DNA from: Sphingomonas sp. HMP6
GTDB lineage: Bacteria; Pseudomonadota; Alphaproteobacteria; Sphingomonadales; Sphingomonadaceae
Reading direction: 5' to 3'
DNA: 64,000 nt
NCBI RefSeq assembly: GCF_013374095.1
Contig: NZ_AP022672.1
Location: 744,001 to 808,000 of the forward strand
Part shown: piece by piece, positions 52,370-57,878 of the stretch
Position numbering within the stretch: position 1 is the first letter of the stretch
Layout: every line of letters begins with the position of its first letter
Program-made: the position numbers and the translations under genes
The notes under the pieces: generated by a model
Databases searched by the model: none
Told to the model about the DNA's origin: nothing
What the model saw: the letters and a program-made list of their open reading frames with translations, nothing else

Positions 52370-52747
52370 ATGGGCCGTCACATACTCCCTTCCATTATGC
52401 TTCCTGCCATTGCAGCACTAACGCTGCTTAGCGGCTGCCGGTCGCCCATTTCAGATCAGGCAAAGCTGAAAAGGGCTGGTATGGAGGCCATATCTTTGAT
52501 GGCGACTCATCCGGCAAAGCCGCCCCTTCGCTACACGGACGTCCCGAAAGTTCAATGGCCCGCCGCCATCGCAAGCCTCGACCCTGAACGGGTCGTAGTT
52601 CACGAGTGGGGCGTCGACATCTTAGTCAAATCCTATTTCGACGGGGGATGGGGCTATCATGTTGCCAGGCAGAGGCGCGACCTACCAATGCTCGACGGGT
52701 GCTACTCTGAGGTCAGCAAAGGAGTGTTCTGGCACGACCCTTGTTGA
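52370..52747 (+). CDS. Putative lipoprotein
   Basis: A 125-residue protein with a lipoprotein signal LPAIAALTLLSGC (cleavage before Cys) and a mature part of about 100 residues with WHDPC at the end. It resembles small Sphingomonas lipoproteins of unknown function. An internal ATG at 52397 would keep the signal peptide intact and might be the real start. Composition is less GC-rich than the genes on either side. The 160 bases before it show nothing else. Confidence 0.65.
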   Translation: MGRHILPSIMLPAIAALTLLSGCRSPISDQAKLKRAGMEAISLMATHPAKPPLRYTDVPKVQWPAAIASLDPERVVVHEWGVDILVKSYFDGGWGYHVARQRRDLPMLDGCYSEVSKGVFWHDPC

Positions 52748-52809
52748 TCCGGGAACGTCCGCTTGCCACCACTTTCAGACCTTCAGTCTATACTCTGACT
52801 TCCAAAACC

Positions 52810-53808
52810 TCACTCGTTCACCGGGACGCAGGGTTTGACCGAGTCGCACGCTGCCACCGCCGCCGCGCGTGATCCGTACGGTCCGACCATGACGCGGGTG
52901 AGCGCGCCGACTTTCACATACGTCACGCTCGCGCCGGGGAAGCGACCGGCGACCTGGCCACCGAGTTTGCGGGCATTGCCGGGGTCTCCGAAGGCGCCGA
53001 GCTGCAAGCGCCAGCCACCACGGCCGCTGGCGACCGGGCCGGGGGCAGGGGTGCGCACCGCGGCCACCGTCGGTGGCGCGGCGCGCGGTGTGGATGTGGG
53101 CCGTTCGGGGCGCATCGCAACGACCTCGGGCTTGCGCTCAACGCTCGGATCATAGTTCGACGGCGGTAGATCGGTCCCGCGGATCGATGCGACGCTGCCC
53201 TGGCCTGACATCTCGGACGGCAATTGTGGGCGTTGCGCGTCGGCCTCATATTGCCGCGCGAGCTCAAGCCCGCGCTGGCGCTGATCGGTCGGGATCATCG
53301 TGTCCATCTTCGCTTGCACTTCGGATGCGTTGGGCATCCCGGCGGCGGCGGAGCGGACGAGGAACGCGTAGGCGCGCGGCCAATCCTTCTCCACCCCGTC
53401 GCCGTTGAACAGCATGGTGCCGAGCACCAGTTCGGCGCGCGGTTCGCCCCGTTTCGCGGCTTTCTCCAGCCACGGTGCGGCTTCGCTGCGCTTGCCCTGA
53501 TCGAACAGCACCAGGCCCAATTTCGCCTCGGCCTCGAAATGGCCCTGCAACGCCGCCTTGCGGAACCAGCTCGCGGCCATCGCGATATCGACCGGTACGC
53601 CGCGCCCGAGCGTATAGGCCTGTCCGAGGTTGAATTGCGCATCGGCGTCGCCGGCATTCGCCGCAGGGCGCCATTCCTCGATCGCCTTGCGATATTCGCC
53701 GCGGCCATAGGCATCGACGCCCTGCTTCACATCCGCAAGCGCAGGCGCGACTGCCATCGCTAGCCCGCCTACTGCGGCCAGCACCCCAAACATTGCACGG
53801 CTTCGCAT
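52810..53808 (-). CDS. Sel1-repeat and SPOR-domain periplasmic protein
   Basis: 332 residues: signal peptide (MFGVLAAVGGLAMAVAPALA), Sel1-like TPR repeats (about 30-170; DAQFNLGQAYTLGRGVPVDIAMAASWFRKAA and the next WLEKAAKRGEPRAELVLG), a proline-rich linker, and a C-terminal SPOR domain (about 255-325; GWRLQLGAFGDPGNARKLG...VTYVKVGALTRVMVGPYGSRAAA). SPOR binds denuded peptidoglycan at the division septum. It diverges from the parA gene with 178 bases between the starts, and a second SPOR protein lies in that operon. Confidence 0.9.
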   Translation of the reverse strand: MRSRAMFGVLAAVGGLAMAVAPALADVKQGVDAYGRGEYRKAIEEWRPAANAGDADAQFNLGQAYTLGRGVPVDIAMAASWFRKAALQGHFEAEAKLGLVLFDQGKRSEAAPWLEKAAKRGEPRAELVLGTMLFNGDGVEKDWPRAYAFLVRSAAAGMPNASEVQAKMDTMIPTDQRQRGLELARQYEADAQRPQLPSEMSGQGSVASIRGTDLPPSNYDPSVERKPEVVAMRPERPTSTPRAAPPTVAAVRTPAPGPVASGRGGWRLQLGAFGDPGNARKLGGQVAGRFPGASVTYVKVGALTRVMVGPYGSRAAAVAACDSVKPCVPVNE

Positions 53809-53986
53809 CGTCTTTGTCCCGTCTCGTCCCGTGTCTGCCACCCTACAATGCCCTCTAGCCGAAGTTTGGCAAAGATTTCGTTATGGACGCTCATCCGAAA
53901 GTACGAAGTCGCTGCAGCCGTTAACCTTTCCTTGACCCCTGCCATGGCATTTCAGGGTCTCGAATAGCGGGTTTCAAAGGGGCAAC

Positions 53987-54706
53987 ATGCGCGTTCTCGC
54001 GATGGCATCTCAAAAAGGCGGTTCGGGCAAGACAACCTTGTCCGGGCATCTGGCCGTGCAGGCACAGCTTGCAGGAGCAGGACCGGTCGTGCTGATCGAT
54101 ATCGATCCGCAAGGCTCGCTGTCAGATTGGTGGAATGAGCGGAGCGCGGAATATCCGGCGTTCGCGCAGACCACTGTCGCGCGGCTTTCCGCCGATCTGG
54201 AGGTGCTGCGCCAGCAGGGCTTCCGCCTGGCGATGATCGATACACCGCCCGCCATTACGATGGCGATCCAGAGCGTGATCGCCGTCGCCGAACTGATCGT
54301 CATCCCGACGCGCCCGAGCCCGCACGATCTGCGCGCGGTCGGCGCCACCGTCGATCTGTGCGAACGCGCGGGCAAACCGCTGCTGTTCGTCGTCAACGGC
54401 GCGACACCCAAGGCCAAGATCACCTCCGAAGCCGCTGTCGCTTTGTCGCAGCATGGCACGGTCGCACCGATCACGATCCACCATCGTACCGATTTCGCCG
54501 CATCGATGATCGATGGTCGAACCGTTATGGAGTGCGACGGCAACAGCAAATCGGCGCAGGAAGTGCGCGATCTGTGGACGTATATCTCCGACCGGCTCGA
54601 AAAGAATTTCCGCCGTACCGTGTTTGCCGCACCCACTGCGGTCAACGGATATGGCGCGCAGCGGCCTTCGGCAGGCGGTGGCTTCGGCCGCCGGGTGGTG
54701 AGCTGA
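53987..54706 (+). CDS. ParA-family positioning ATPase
   Basis: A 239-residue ParA/MinD-superfamily ATPase. The deviant Walker A KGGSGKTT starts at Lys10, the switch I/Walker A' aspartates Asp38 and Asp40 sit in VVLIDIDPQGSLSDWW, and Walker B is LAMIDTPP (about 78-85). It lacks the MinD-type membrane helix at the C terminus, and the extra glycine/proline tail is not conserved. No parS-like sequences or ParB are next to it, so it is not the main chromosomal partition ParA. It ends one base before an RHH-like gene and belongs to a three-gene operon with a SPOR protein. AAGGGG ribosome site. Confidence 0.92.
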   Translation: MRVLAMASQKGGSGKTTLSGHLAVQAQLAGAGPVVLIDIDPQGSLSDWWNERSAEYPAFAQTTVARLSADLEVLRQQGFRLAMIDTPPAITMAIQSVIAVAELIVIPTRPSPHDLRAVGATVDLCERAGKPLLFVVNGATPKAKITSEAAVALSQHGTVAPITIHHRTDFAASMIDGRTVMECDGNSKSAQEVRDLWTYISDRLEKNFRRTVFAAPTAVNGYGAQRPSAGGGFGRRVVS

Positions 54707-54707
54707 A

Positions 54708-55292
54708 ATGAATATGTTCAGCCAATCCAAACCGACCGCGTCGTTGTCTTCGACGTTGCTCGCTCGCAAGGGCCAGGCGAAACCCGCGATGCGGCCGCAA
54801 GGCTTTGGCGGATTCGGCACCTTCCCCGGTGCTGGCCCCGAAGGGCAGGACGATCTCGGCTGGAACGACATGGGCCACCCGGTCGATGCACCGCAGCACT
54901 CCTATGCCCCGCATCAGCCGGTTCCGCCGGTGCTCGTTCAGCGCGAAGTGCTGCGTGAGGAATTCGCGATGCCGGCACCCATGCCGGTGGCGTACGAACC
55001 CGAACCGGAGCCCGAGCCCGAAGCACCGGCGCCTGCGATGATCAAGCCGATCTCGGTCGCGACCGCCGCCCGGATCGGGCGCGAGACGACCAAGAAGCAT
55101 ACCAAGAAACATGCGAAATCCGCCTTCACGCTGCGGCTGGACCATGATCGGCACTTGCGACTGCGATTGGCGAGTGCGCTCCACAATGCCTCGGCCCAGA
55201 CGCTGGTGACCGCGGCGCTCGACCAATTCCTGCAATCACTGCCCGAAGTCGACGATCTGGTCCGCCAGATTCCGACGCGGTCGGCGCGATGA
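54708..55292 (+). CDS. Hypothetical protein with C-terminal ribbon-helix-helix-like segment, partner of ParA
   Basis: 194 residues beginning MNMFSQSKPTASL. The first 115 residues are low-complexity, Pro/Gly-rich, with an acidic PEPEPEPE run (98-107). Residues 139-178, AFTLRLDHDRHLRLRLASAL-HNASAQTLVTAALDQFLQSL, look like a ribbon-helix-helix: a beta-strand with alternating residues, then two helices. Such DNA-binding partners regulate ParA in plasmid systems (ParG/Omega-like). It starts one base after parA. Inferred to be a centromere-binding or adaptor protein; the RHH call needs a structure comparison. Confidence 0.6.
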   Translation: MNMFSQSKPTASLSSTLLARKGQAKPAMRPQGFGGFGTFPGAGPEGQDDLGWNDMGHPVDAPQHSYAPHQPVPPVLVQREVLREEFAMPAPMPVAYEPEPEPEPEAPAPAMIKPISVATAARIGRETTKKHTKKHAKSAFTLRLDHDRHLRLRLASALHNASAQTLVTAALDQFLQSLPEVDDLVRQIPTRSAR

Positions 55293-55314
55293 ACGTCCCT
55301 GGGGGAGAGCTACG

Positions 55315-56640
55315 ATGAAGACCCGGTCCGCCATCACTTTCGGCCCCCTCACGCTGGGCCTATCCGTTCTCGCACTCGTCGGCACGGTCGGTGCGGTTGC
55401 CACCTCGACGATCGCCGCGGCCAGCGCACGCGAGCAATCGCGCGGCGAAAAGAAGGGGGCAGGGGAAGCCAAGGCAGCGCAGATCGCGCTGTCGCAACGG
55501 CAGATCGGATCTGCAATCCGCCATGCCGAGGCCGCCGTCGCCTATCAGCCACAAGTCGTGTCGTACCGCATGACGCTGGGTCAAAGTTATCTCAAGGCCG
55601 GGCGCTTCGCCTCGGCGCGCGACGCGTTTGCCGATGCGCTGACGCTCGATTCGGGCAATGGCAAGGCCGCGCTCGATTGTGCGCTGGCGCAGATCGCGAC
55701 GGGTGATTGGGCCGGAGCACGAAAGACGCTCGACGCGCATGCCGACACGATTGCGGTTGCCGACCGTGGCCTCGCGATCGCGCTGACCGGGGATCCGGCG
55801 GCGGCGGTCGAATTGCTCGCCACTGCCGCACGCGCCCCCGATGCCGATGCGACGCTGCGGCAGAATTTCGCGCTGAGCCTCGCGCTGGCGGGGCGCTGGC
55901 GTGAGGCGCGCACGGTGGTTGGGGTCGATCTCGCGCCGGTCGATGCCGACAAGCGCATTCTCGAATGGGCGAATTTTGCACAGCCGAAATCGGCATCGGA
56001 TCAGGTCGCCAGCCTGCTTGGTGTGACGCCGTCGATGGATCCGGGCCGGCCGGTTGCGCTGGCGCTGAACACGCCGCAAGTCGCCACGACCGCGATGGCT
56101 GCGGCGGAGCCGATCGATACTTATATGCCCGGCAAGGTCGAGGCTGCTGCCCCGGTCGAAGTGGCCGCGGTATCCGAAATGCAGGCGGCGCCGGTCGGGC
56201 CGAGCATCGCCGGCGTGGTGTTTGCCGAGCGCAAGGAGGTCGTCCAGGCGATCCCGGTGTCTGCGCGCGGCGTGCGCAAGGCCGTCGTGGCGCGCGTTGC
56301 GCTCGCTAAGGTTGCGCCAGCCGCAGTGCAGCCGCGCGTGGCTGCAAAGGGGAATTTCTACGTCCAGCTCGGCGCTTATGAAAATGCCGGTGTCGCACAC
56401 GATGCGTGGGGCCGGGTCACGCGGCGCAATGCTGCGTTCGGGGGGCACACACCGCAGGGCATGAGCGTCACGGCCGCGGGCAAGACCTTCTATCGTCTGT
56501 CGGTCGGCGGGTTCGCGCGTCCTGATGCGGTCGCCTTGTGCCAGACCTATCGCGCGAAGGGCGGGGCGTGCTTCGTTCGCGCAGGCGCGGGCGATCAGGT
56601 CGCGATGTGGGCCAAGGGCCGCGAACTCGCCTCGCGCTAA
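55315..56640 (+). CDS. TPR-like protein with C-terminal SPOR domain
   Basis: 441 residues: an N-terminal hydrophobic segment (about 8-34, FGPLTLGLSVLALVGTVGAVATSTIAA) acting as signal peptide or anchor, TPR-like helices (about 50-215; VVSYRMTLGQSYLKAGRFASARDAF...), an Ala/Pro-rich linker and a C-terminal SPOR domain (about 345-425; NFYVQLGAYENAGVAHDAW...FYRLSVGGFARPDAVAL). It lies 22 bases after the RHH-like gene. Together with ParA it links cytoplasmic positioning to the septal cell wall. The stop overlaps the convergent pyrX stop (CTAA). Confidence 0.88.
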   Translation: MKTRSAITFGPLTLGLSVLALVGTVGAVATSTIAAASAREQSRGEKKGAGEAKAAQIALSQRQIGSAIRHAEAAVAYQPQVVSYRMTLGQSYLKAGRFASARDAFADALTLDSGNGKAALDCALAQIATGDWAGARKTLDAHADTIAVADRGLAIALTGDPAAAVELLATAARAPDADATLRQNFALSLALAGRWREARTVVGVDLAPVDADKRILEWANFAQPKSASDQVASLLGVTPSMDPGRPVALALNTPQVATTAMAAAEPIDTYMPGKVEAAAPVEVAAVSEMQAAPVGPSIAGVVFAERKEVVQAIPVSARGVRKAVVARVALAKVAPAAVQPRVAAKGNFYVQLGAYENAGVAHDAWGRVTRRNAAFGGHTPQGMSVTAAGKTFYRLSVGGFARPDAVALCQTYRAKGGACFVRAGAGDQVAMWAKGRELASR

Positions 56641-57878
56641 ACCCGCGACGGCAAGGGGAGAGCGGTGCCGCCCTTAAACAGGCGTAGCACCTTGCCCTGA
56701 ACCGGCAGCCCGTCGAAGGGCGTATTGCCGGCGCGGGCGTGGAAACGCTCGCCATTCACTTGCCACGGGGCGTCGTGATCGATCAGCACCAGGTCAGCGG
56801 GCGCGCCGCGCGTTAGCGTGCCCGCATCGACGCCCAGTACCCTGGCCGGATGGGCCGCGAGCAACGCGAACAGCCGCTGCAGATCGATCGTCTCGTCGCG
56901 CACCAGTCCCAGCCCAAGCGCAAGCAGCGTCTCCGCCCCGGCCATGCCCGACGCCGAATCGGCGAAGGGCAAGCGCTTCTCCTCCGGCCCGCGCGGATCG
57001 TGCCCAGAACAGAGCACGTCGATTGTCCCGTCGGCCAGTGCTGCGACCGCGGCCTGGCGGTCGCTTTCCGAGCGCAGCGGCGGCGAAAGATGCGCGAAGG
57101 TGCGGAAGTCGCTCATCGCGATGTCGGATAGGAAAAGGTGCGCGGGCGTGATGCCGCACGTCACCCGCACGCCGCGCCGTTTCGCCGCGCGGACCAGATC
57201 AAACCCAGCGGCCGTCGTGACTTGGCGGATATGGAGGGCCGCGCCGGTTTCCTCCGCCAGCATCAGGTCGCGCGCGACGGCGAGCGCCTCGGCGACCGCT
57301 GGAGCCGATGGCAAGCCCATCCGCGTTGCCGTCTCGCCCGCGGTCGCGACGGCGCCTGCGGTGATCCCGGCATCCTCGGCATGGGCGATGACGGTCAGCC
57401 CGAGGTCCCCGGCATACGCTAGCACTTTGCGCATCAGCCCCGAATCGGCGATCCATCCGGCACCGGTGCCGATCGCGCGGGCGCCGGCATCGCGGTTGAT
57501 CGCCATTTCGGCGAGATCCTTGCCCGCCAGTCCGCGCGTTGCCGCGGCAATCGGGTGGATCCACAGCCCCGGGCGACCGATCAGCGCGGCACGCTGTACC
57601 ACGCCCGGATCGTCAAGCACGGGTGACTGATCGGGCATCAATCCGACGCGGACGATGCCGCCGGCATGGAACGCGGGGACGTCGATCGCGAACACGCCGA
57701 GATCGACGATGGCAGGCGCGAGCAGCGCGCCATTGCATGCGATCACCTCGGCACCTTCGGGAATTTCGATCACGCCGGTCGCGACGATACAGTCGTCCGC
57801 AACCAGCACGCCGCCGTGCGACTGGCCCGCCACCGGGCAGACCAACGTCGCGTCGGTCAAGGCCAGCATCCGGCTCAT
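56637..57878 (-). CDS. pyrX: Dihydroorotase-like protein, catalytically inactive (PyrX/pseudo-DHOase)
   Basis: A 413-residue dihydroorotase homologue lacking the metal site: where active enzymes have DxHxH after the start of the barrel, this one reads [21 protein letters not shown], without the HxH pair. Later residues, HAEDA and [12 protein letters not shown], are retained in part. Such inactive partners (PyrC' in Pseudomonas) are required for aspartate carbamoyltransferase to assemble. It is coupled to pyrB by an ATGA overlap, in the same order. Annotated by default as dihydroorotase, it probably has no such activity; a working pyrC must lie elsewhere. Confidence 0.88.

Follow-up and report, generated by a model that had tools for sequence, protein, structure and literature searches.

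A chromosomal ParA of the small-plasmid type, with an RHH-like partner, is held beside two SPOR-domain genes in Sphingomonadales

What is a ParA-type ATPase of the kind used by small plasmids doing on a bacterial chromosome, flanked by two genes for proteins with SPOR domains? This question is raised by a gene cluster in Sphingomonas sp. HMP6, within a 64,000-nucleotide stretch of contig NZ_AP022672.1 (positions 744,001 to 808,000; hereafter 'the window', whose own numbering is used below) of a 3.64 Mb genome assembled as one contig. The cluster encodes a ParA, a 194-residue partner with a ribbon-helix-helix (RHH)-like end and two SPOR-domain proteins. We find that a ParA of the type small plasmids use has become a fixed chromosomal gene beside two SPOR genes in a large bacterial group, the order Sphingomonadales (our sampled order is perhaps wider than that of NCBI). 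The new observation concerns seven loci from outside the order: next to a related ParA, each encodes a SPOR protein in which a hydrophobic helix is preceded by the N-terminal motif of the ParA partner. The plasmid-type ParA/RHH pair that makes up half of the cluster is already known.

The four genes named in the original prediction, which was made from the letters of the window, are all confirmed by the gene calls, the Walker A motif, Pfam matches and a fold model. The ParA gene (53987..54706, + strand, 239 residues) is separated by 1 bp from the partner gene (54708..55292, +), which is followed after 22 bp by a gene for a protein with tetratricopeptide repeats (TPR) and a C-terminal SPOR domain (55315..56640, +). 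Divergent from these is a gene for a Sel1-repeat protein, also with a C-terminal SPOR domain (52810..53841, − strand; likely start ATG at 53808), and the divergent starts lie 145 bp apart (53842-53986). The SPOR domains of the Sel1 protein (52834..53022, −) and the TPR protein (56344..56580, +) exceed the Pfam cut-off of 21 bits, with scores of 54.9 and 37.2 bits, and the Sel1 and TPR repeats are over their cut-offs as well.

Each of 123 of the 147 genomes of the order carries a single ParA match (E<=1e-40), as do 109 of the 124 genomes of good quality. A profile of the partner matches 104 of the 147; among the genomes that carry ParA yet escape the profile are several of family f5, whose partner is short and has diverged (judged by eye at locus L111). 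Among 80 relatives taken as the best ParA matches, and hence close kin, the Sel1-SPOR gene adjoins ParA in 73 of the 74 loci with enough upstream DNA, while, given enough downstream DNA, TPR-SPOR is kept at every one of 74 loci and the partner gene at every one of 79. A further 20 loci were hand-picked for breadth, so as to take in other families and unusual members (family f1 supplies two of them), and 19 have a SPOR gene no more than 1.7 kb from ParA. Gene order varies, in that the f5 loci L111, L115 and L121 have both SPOR genes 3ʹ of the partner gene. The original prediction was to be abandoned if the ParA proved usually unlinked to SPOR genes, and the linkage is much stronger than could be known from the window.

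The ParA itself has a deviant Walker A motif (KGGSGKT, residues 10-16) and no N-terminal helix-turn-helix (HTH), as do the small ParAs of type Ib partition systems such as ParF-ParG. It matches ParF over residues 1-192 (E=1e-14) and scores 161.1 bits with the NCBIfam equivalog model ParA_partition, slightly under the curated cut-off of 180 bits, which marks it as related. The MinD model gives 22.4 bits against a cut-off of 212.9, so the protein is not MinD. The 194-residue partner lacks a ParB domain in a Pfam scan, and the parB gene of this genome resides elsewhere on the contig (contig positions 2734994-2735491). The claim that the system is distinct from ParABS and Min thus stands, but partition systems of a known small-plasmid type have a similar ParA/partner pair. 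In a tree of 76 ParA proteins, made by a quick method that leaves 32 of 73 inner branches open, the proteins of the order broadly track families and need two changes.

The partner appears to be built from three parts. Residues 11-31 (54738..54800, +) form a basic motif, ASLSxxLLARKGxAxPAMRxQ, that is nearly invariant among the 80 close relatives in the form ASLSxxLLARKGxA[KR]PAMRxQ; a strict version of the pattern fits 79 of these 80 proteins, and in the exception (L016) the start is cut short as called. An acidic linker modelled with low confidence follows, in which residues 48-56 (54849..54875, +) carry the motif [DE]DLGWNDMG. This second motif is confined to close loci, where its WNDM core occurs in 78 of 80, as opposed to 0 of 18 other partners in the order and 0 of 15 outside it (in this wider set, L103-L142, partners were picked in 33 of 40 loci). 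The C-terminal third is predicted by AlphaFold 2 to hold two high-confidence helices after an extended stretch, and its top structural matches with VIA-align are RHH proteins, the modelled RHH-like segment spanning residues 137-178 (55116..55241, +). The Foldseek match of this end does not reach a significant E-value, its sequence is below every Pfam cut-off for RHH families, and a search of the partner sequence against solved structures gave no significant match. The possibility that the partner lacks an RHH fold, which would have told against the original prediction, is thus not borne out by the model. An RHH-like partner encoded directly 3ʹ of ParA is again a trait of type Ib systems, on the basis here of the fold model. 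As an aside, a C-x-C sequence near the partner C-terminus is present in 15 of 18 other loci of the order and in 11 of 15 outside it, and in 0 of 80 close loci; it is perhaps a metal site lost in the close family.

Known partners of ParA/MinD ATPases have a short basic N-terminal extension grafted on diverse modules (PMC7993993, PMC10241942; these and the other PMC papers cited below were drawn on in excerpt). Because a conserved basic start, an acidic low-confidence linker and an RHH-like end fit this published design, we take the 194-residue protein to be the presumed ParA adaptor, and its LLARKGxA motif to be a candidate ParA docking peptide. The distribution of the motif is consistent with this role. 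When the strict pattern was sought in the first 70 residues of 2592 open reading frames (ORFs) of at least 90 residues from 60 loci, in 59 of which ParA was found, it occurred in 39, and all 39 lie directly 3ʹ of ParA. A distance rule places 38 of them there, and the last, at L127, belongs there as well once the 66-bp over-extension of its ORF is allowed for. At the 20 loci lacking a strict match, the motif has a looser form, the ORF is over-extended, the contig ends or there is no partner. These counts are to be read knowing that the strict pattern was written after most partners were known; the 20 loci described next were selected through ParA alone, but their motifs too were already visible when the pattern was written.

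Within the class, the ParA subfamily has a patchy distribution beyond the order (39 of 289 genomes at E<=1e-60, four of these 39 being in the order). We examined 19 of 43 ParA matches from outside the order through partner matches (20 stretches, one of which, L139, is without ParA) and 20 through ParA alone; four were left out. No separate SPOR gene lies beside ParA in the examined stretches. In seven of the 20 loci chosen by ParA alone (L151, L156, L157, L163, L164, L165 and L169), the next gene, 1-41 bp on, itself encodes a SPOR protein; it shares the N-terminal motif and has its SPOR domain at the C-terminus, with an acidic proline-rich stretch and a single hydrophobic helix between the two. 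Three of these seven proteins were scanned with Pfam, and the SPOR domain is over the cut-off in each; the same holds for the motif-bearing SPOR protein P0168, for which a weak single-sequence model (mean pLDDT, a per-residue confidence measure, of 56) predicts a lone helix at residues 92-114 and a folded SPOR end. Among 104 database relatives of one such protein, 60 combine the strict motif with a hydrophobic helix (the organisms named include Rhodobiaceae, Parvibaculum and Tepidicaulis) and 44 are without the motif. On the ParA tree the seven motif-SPOR loci need three changes and five of them form one supported clade; supported branches force only one change, which leaves room for a single origin of the pairing. 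Two side observations concern other loci of this survey. At L154 (genome G307) the motif is joined to a weak HTH-like end that is under the cut-off, and DUF2336 genes (E between about 1e-46 and 1e-50) recur as a neighbour of another kind at the ParA-RHH pairs L128, L137 and L141.

The motif-bearing SPOR proteins are the strongest argument that the neighbourhood seen in the window is functional. Together with the linkage in the order, they suggest, though they do not prove, that DNA positioning is linked to cell division. We judge the chances to be about even that the cluster is a chromosomally fixed ParA-adaptor positioning module that shares a cell-cycle process with two SPOR proteins of the periplasm. 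ParA proteins bind the nucleoid in their ATP form, and the ParA of the window would do likewise. The 194-residue adaptor would dock on it through the basic peptide LLARKGxAxPAMR and stimulate ATP hydrolysis, the flexible linker may space this peptide from the RHH end, and an RHH dimer could bind DNA or a nucleoprotein cargo. The septal wall, with the denuded glycans that SPOR domains are known to bind, would be where the two SPOR proteins work; what joins them to the ParA pair would be a common operon, promoter region and timing, and not physical contact. In the lineages where the candidate docking peptide belongs to a SPOR protein that has a membrane helix, a physical link between ParA and SPOR protein can exist.

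Several observations weigh against a positioning module of this kind. Judged by hydropathy only, each of the two SPOR proteins encoded in the window starts with an export signal and has no cytoplasmic domain. The linkage has exceptions: L112 has no SPOR gene near ParA, and L048 is without Sel1-SPOR. In a loss survey of 15 genomes (nine without a ParA match and six ParA-bearing controls), the controls match TPR-SPOR in 6 of 6 and Sel1-SPOR in 5 of 6, G135 having ParA and TPR-SPOR and no Sel1-SPOR match. G132, of the same genus as the window, retains serB and both SPOR genes (Sel1 and TPR) at their usual places; ParA and the RHH gene are gone from the space between those two. G105, G121 and G133 keep a Sel1-SPOR-like gene by pyrC-pyrB and have no ParA, RHH or TPR-SPOR gene. 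(In G049, G058, G006, G013 and G066, the genome-wide search gave no TPR-SPOR match and a weak or no Sel1-SPOR match.) These losses indicate that ParA and the RHH protein are mostly absent together and that the SPOR proteins are useful without them. Outside the order, the ParA-RHH pair has a SPOR neighbour in 0 of the 19 ParA-holding partner-match loci. Finally, four of the seven genomes with a motif-SPOR protein (G155, G288, G268 and G352) also carry a separate ParA-RHH locus, and G371 has one by coordinates; the pairs of ParA with RHH and with SPOR proteins may therefore be separate systems. At a further locus of the same genus, L118 (G125), ParA is kept, no partner was found and TPR-SPOR directly follows ParA. 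The G125 ParA branch is long (0.59, compared with 0.03 for the ParA of the window), pointing to fast evolution.

The original prediction held that the nucleoid-bound ParA is tethered directly to the SPOR proteins of the window, and this part, in the form proposed, is not supported. Since both proteins look exported, direct contact with ParA is unlikely. The genome has five SPOR genes, two of which flank this ParA; the other three look like a second TPR-SPOR gene, an RlpA-type gene and a short FtsN-like gene that is flanked by argS- and nagZ-like genes. In none of the five proteins is the docking motif found, strict or loose. A strongly hydrophobic stretch is seen in 74 of 79 TPR-SPOR and 73 of 78 Sel1-SPOR relatives, and a second one, further on, in 16 of 79 and 0 of 78, respectively, such that a membrane-spanning form is possible in those 16 TPR-SPOR relatives. 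Because the window proteins seem to have no cytoplasmic tail and their relatives persist without ParA, we favour a shared process and shared timing as the tie between the SPOR genes and the ParA pair. A small lipoprotein-like ORF adjoins the Sel1-SPOR gene (52370-52747); it has no Pfam family over the cut-off and no match in the 80 relatives (E<=1e-3).

The alternative that survives best, which we nonetheless regard as unlikely, is that the pair descends from a plasmid partition system and still moves DNA: the RHH protein would bind dispersed chromosomal sites, ParA would segregate the region, and the SPOR genes would be stable neighbours with a different role. The 25 plasmid ParAs listed of 3270 records are 53-66% identical to that of the window, and in most of the ten plasmid stretches read a short partner with the motif is encoded directly downstream, hence the resemblance to the small-plasmid type. 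Of the partners in ten plasmid stretches, seven (L145, L146, L149 and L171-L174) pass both a loose motif and a custom RHH profile, L147 passes the profile only, L148 the motif only and L175 neither. Since the profile drew on the partners at the 80 close loci, the picks of the wider set and three plasmid partners (L145, L146 and L149), the E-values of these are given by construction; L151-L170 and L171-L175 are absent from it. On plasmids of Deefgea, Comamonas and Thiothrix, the motif of the partner is followed by an RHH-like end, by our own reading and by the profile that includes these three, and the two checked against Pfam (Deefgea and Comamonas) had no RHH match. The partner of the window has no match on plasmids at E<=0.01, although short partners beside plasmid ParAs share its motif. 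A small ParA, a short partner encoded directly 3ʹ and a basic, flexible N-terminus are features common to type Ib systems and the window pair. This alternative also accommodates both the pairs outside the order that stand without a SPOR neighbour and the genomes G132, G105, G121 and G133, which lack ParA and the RHH gene and keep SPOR genes.

However, the window pair is chromosomal and, through most of an order, present once in each genome; its partner has a long acidic linker, and SPOR genes are attached. Nor is there the upstream repeat array of a plasmid system. The region upstream of ParA (53830-54000) contains no direct repeats and one imperfect inverted repeat with arms 93 nucleotides apart, and the three short repeat arrays found in 52700-56800 are all inside coding DNA, none being intergenic. 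A local centromere served by ParA was therefore rejected for the nearby DNA searched. The locus likewise has no fixed position relative to parB: across 20 genomes assembled as one contig, several of them with sizes that had been rounded, the distance from ParA to parB ranges from 0.03 to 0.50 of genome length. MatP is also an RHH protein, and these distances led us to reject a MatP-like proximity to the replication terminus. A dif pattern was present in 6 of the 20 genomes, with no match in the 12 of family f1, and was not used. Retention of two of the five SPOR genes at one locus across the order further argues against this alternative.

A second alternative, which we consider improbable, is a regulatory unit in which the RHH protein represses the divergent promoter and sets SPOR expression, with ParA modulating the repressor. 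RHH proteins are often repressors, and the shared 145-bp region holds conserved elements. One of these is a CtrA-like box, TTAA-N7-TTGA (53921..53935, +), with one mismatch and 66 bp 5ʹ of the ParA start; another is CATGGCA (53943..53949, +), between this box and the start. The CtrA consensus is TTAA-N7-TTAA (PMC9437464). With at most one mismatch, it occurs 5ʹ of ParA in 75 of 80 close relatives (2.4 expected from Markov samples), 18 of 20 loci of the wider order set (4.9 expected), 10 of 39 outside the order (3.4 expected) and 0 of 10 plasmids (1.2 expected); a perfect site was never found 5ʹ of ParA in these sets. From box to ParA start there are 65 to 149 bp in the wider order set. Cell-cycle timing of ParA by CtrA is a lead, and remains one because the relatives are not independent. 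Since this element reads better as a CtrA-like box, since G132 keeps its SPOR genes in place without the RHH gene, and since conservation of the N-terminal motif of the partner probably goes beyond what a plain repressor needs, regulation explains the cluster less well than positioning does.

A direct tether, by which nucleoid-bound ParA would hold or move the SPOR proteins of the window, has very little chance of being correct: the membrane-helix SPOR proteins that bear the motif beside related ParAs elsewhere lend it an example, but export signals and the lack of the motif in the SPOR proteins of this genome mean that an extra membrane protein would be needed. Chance or passive co-inheritance, to which the frequent retention of serB, miaA, pyrC and pyrB nearby could be attributed, is slightly less credible still, because the four genes persist together at L103, L104, L105, L106 and L108, where none of those neighbours is in the stretch; the linkage counts and the presence of two of the five SPOR genes at one locus also tell against it.

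Relative to described systems that place protein cargo or division sites, the positioning module preferred here would share general design rather than parts. PomX/PomY/PomZ of Myxococcus xanthus similarly has a nucleoid-associated ParA-like ATPase, a partner with a basic N-terminal peptide and a role in cell division, but its partners are unrelated, it positions FtsZ, and no SPOR protein is named in the excerpted account (PMC7993993). PpfA/TlpT, ParC/ParP and McdA/McdB are also ParA-type ATPase systems serving protein cargo, which differ in having chemoreceptor or carboxysome cargo and other partners (PMC9178275, PMC10241942). The motif-SPOR proteins of other lineages resemble FtsN-like SPOR proteins such as RgsS of Sinorhizobium meliloti in being transmembrane with a C-terminal SPOR domain, whereas a ParA docking motif is not mentioned for RgsS in the excerpts (PMC7327166) and is missing from the FtsN-like protein of the window genome (L197). 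A literature search for a Sphingomonas ParA with a SPOR domain returned no paper, and our claim of novelty is limited to such searches.

A wider proposal, which we put forward tentatively and hold to be less probable than the module itself, is that one alphaproteobacterial ParA subfamily uses a single docking peptide on interchangeable modules (RHH, HTH-like and membrane SPOR). Coupling to septal SPOR proteins would have arisen in two ways: as a stable gene cluster in Sphingomonadales and, in lineages that include Parvibaculum and Rhodobiaceae, through fusion of the peptide to a membrane-spanning SPOR protein. The outcome would be a nucleoid-to-septum system that places or times constriction according to the state of the chromosome.

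How chromosome segregation is coupled to remodelling of the septal wall is a long-standing question. The general idea of a ParA system that serves septal SPOR proteins survives these analyses and is now open to experiment: a widespread one-copy locus, a candidate docking peptide and natural motif-SPOR proteins make a link between ParA and the septum directly testable. The family also offers a natural case of one basic peptide being grafted on different modules to make new ParA partners, an idea voiced for PomX (PMC7993993).

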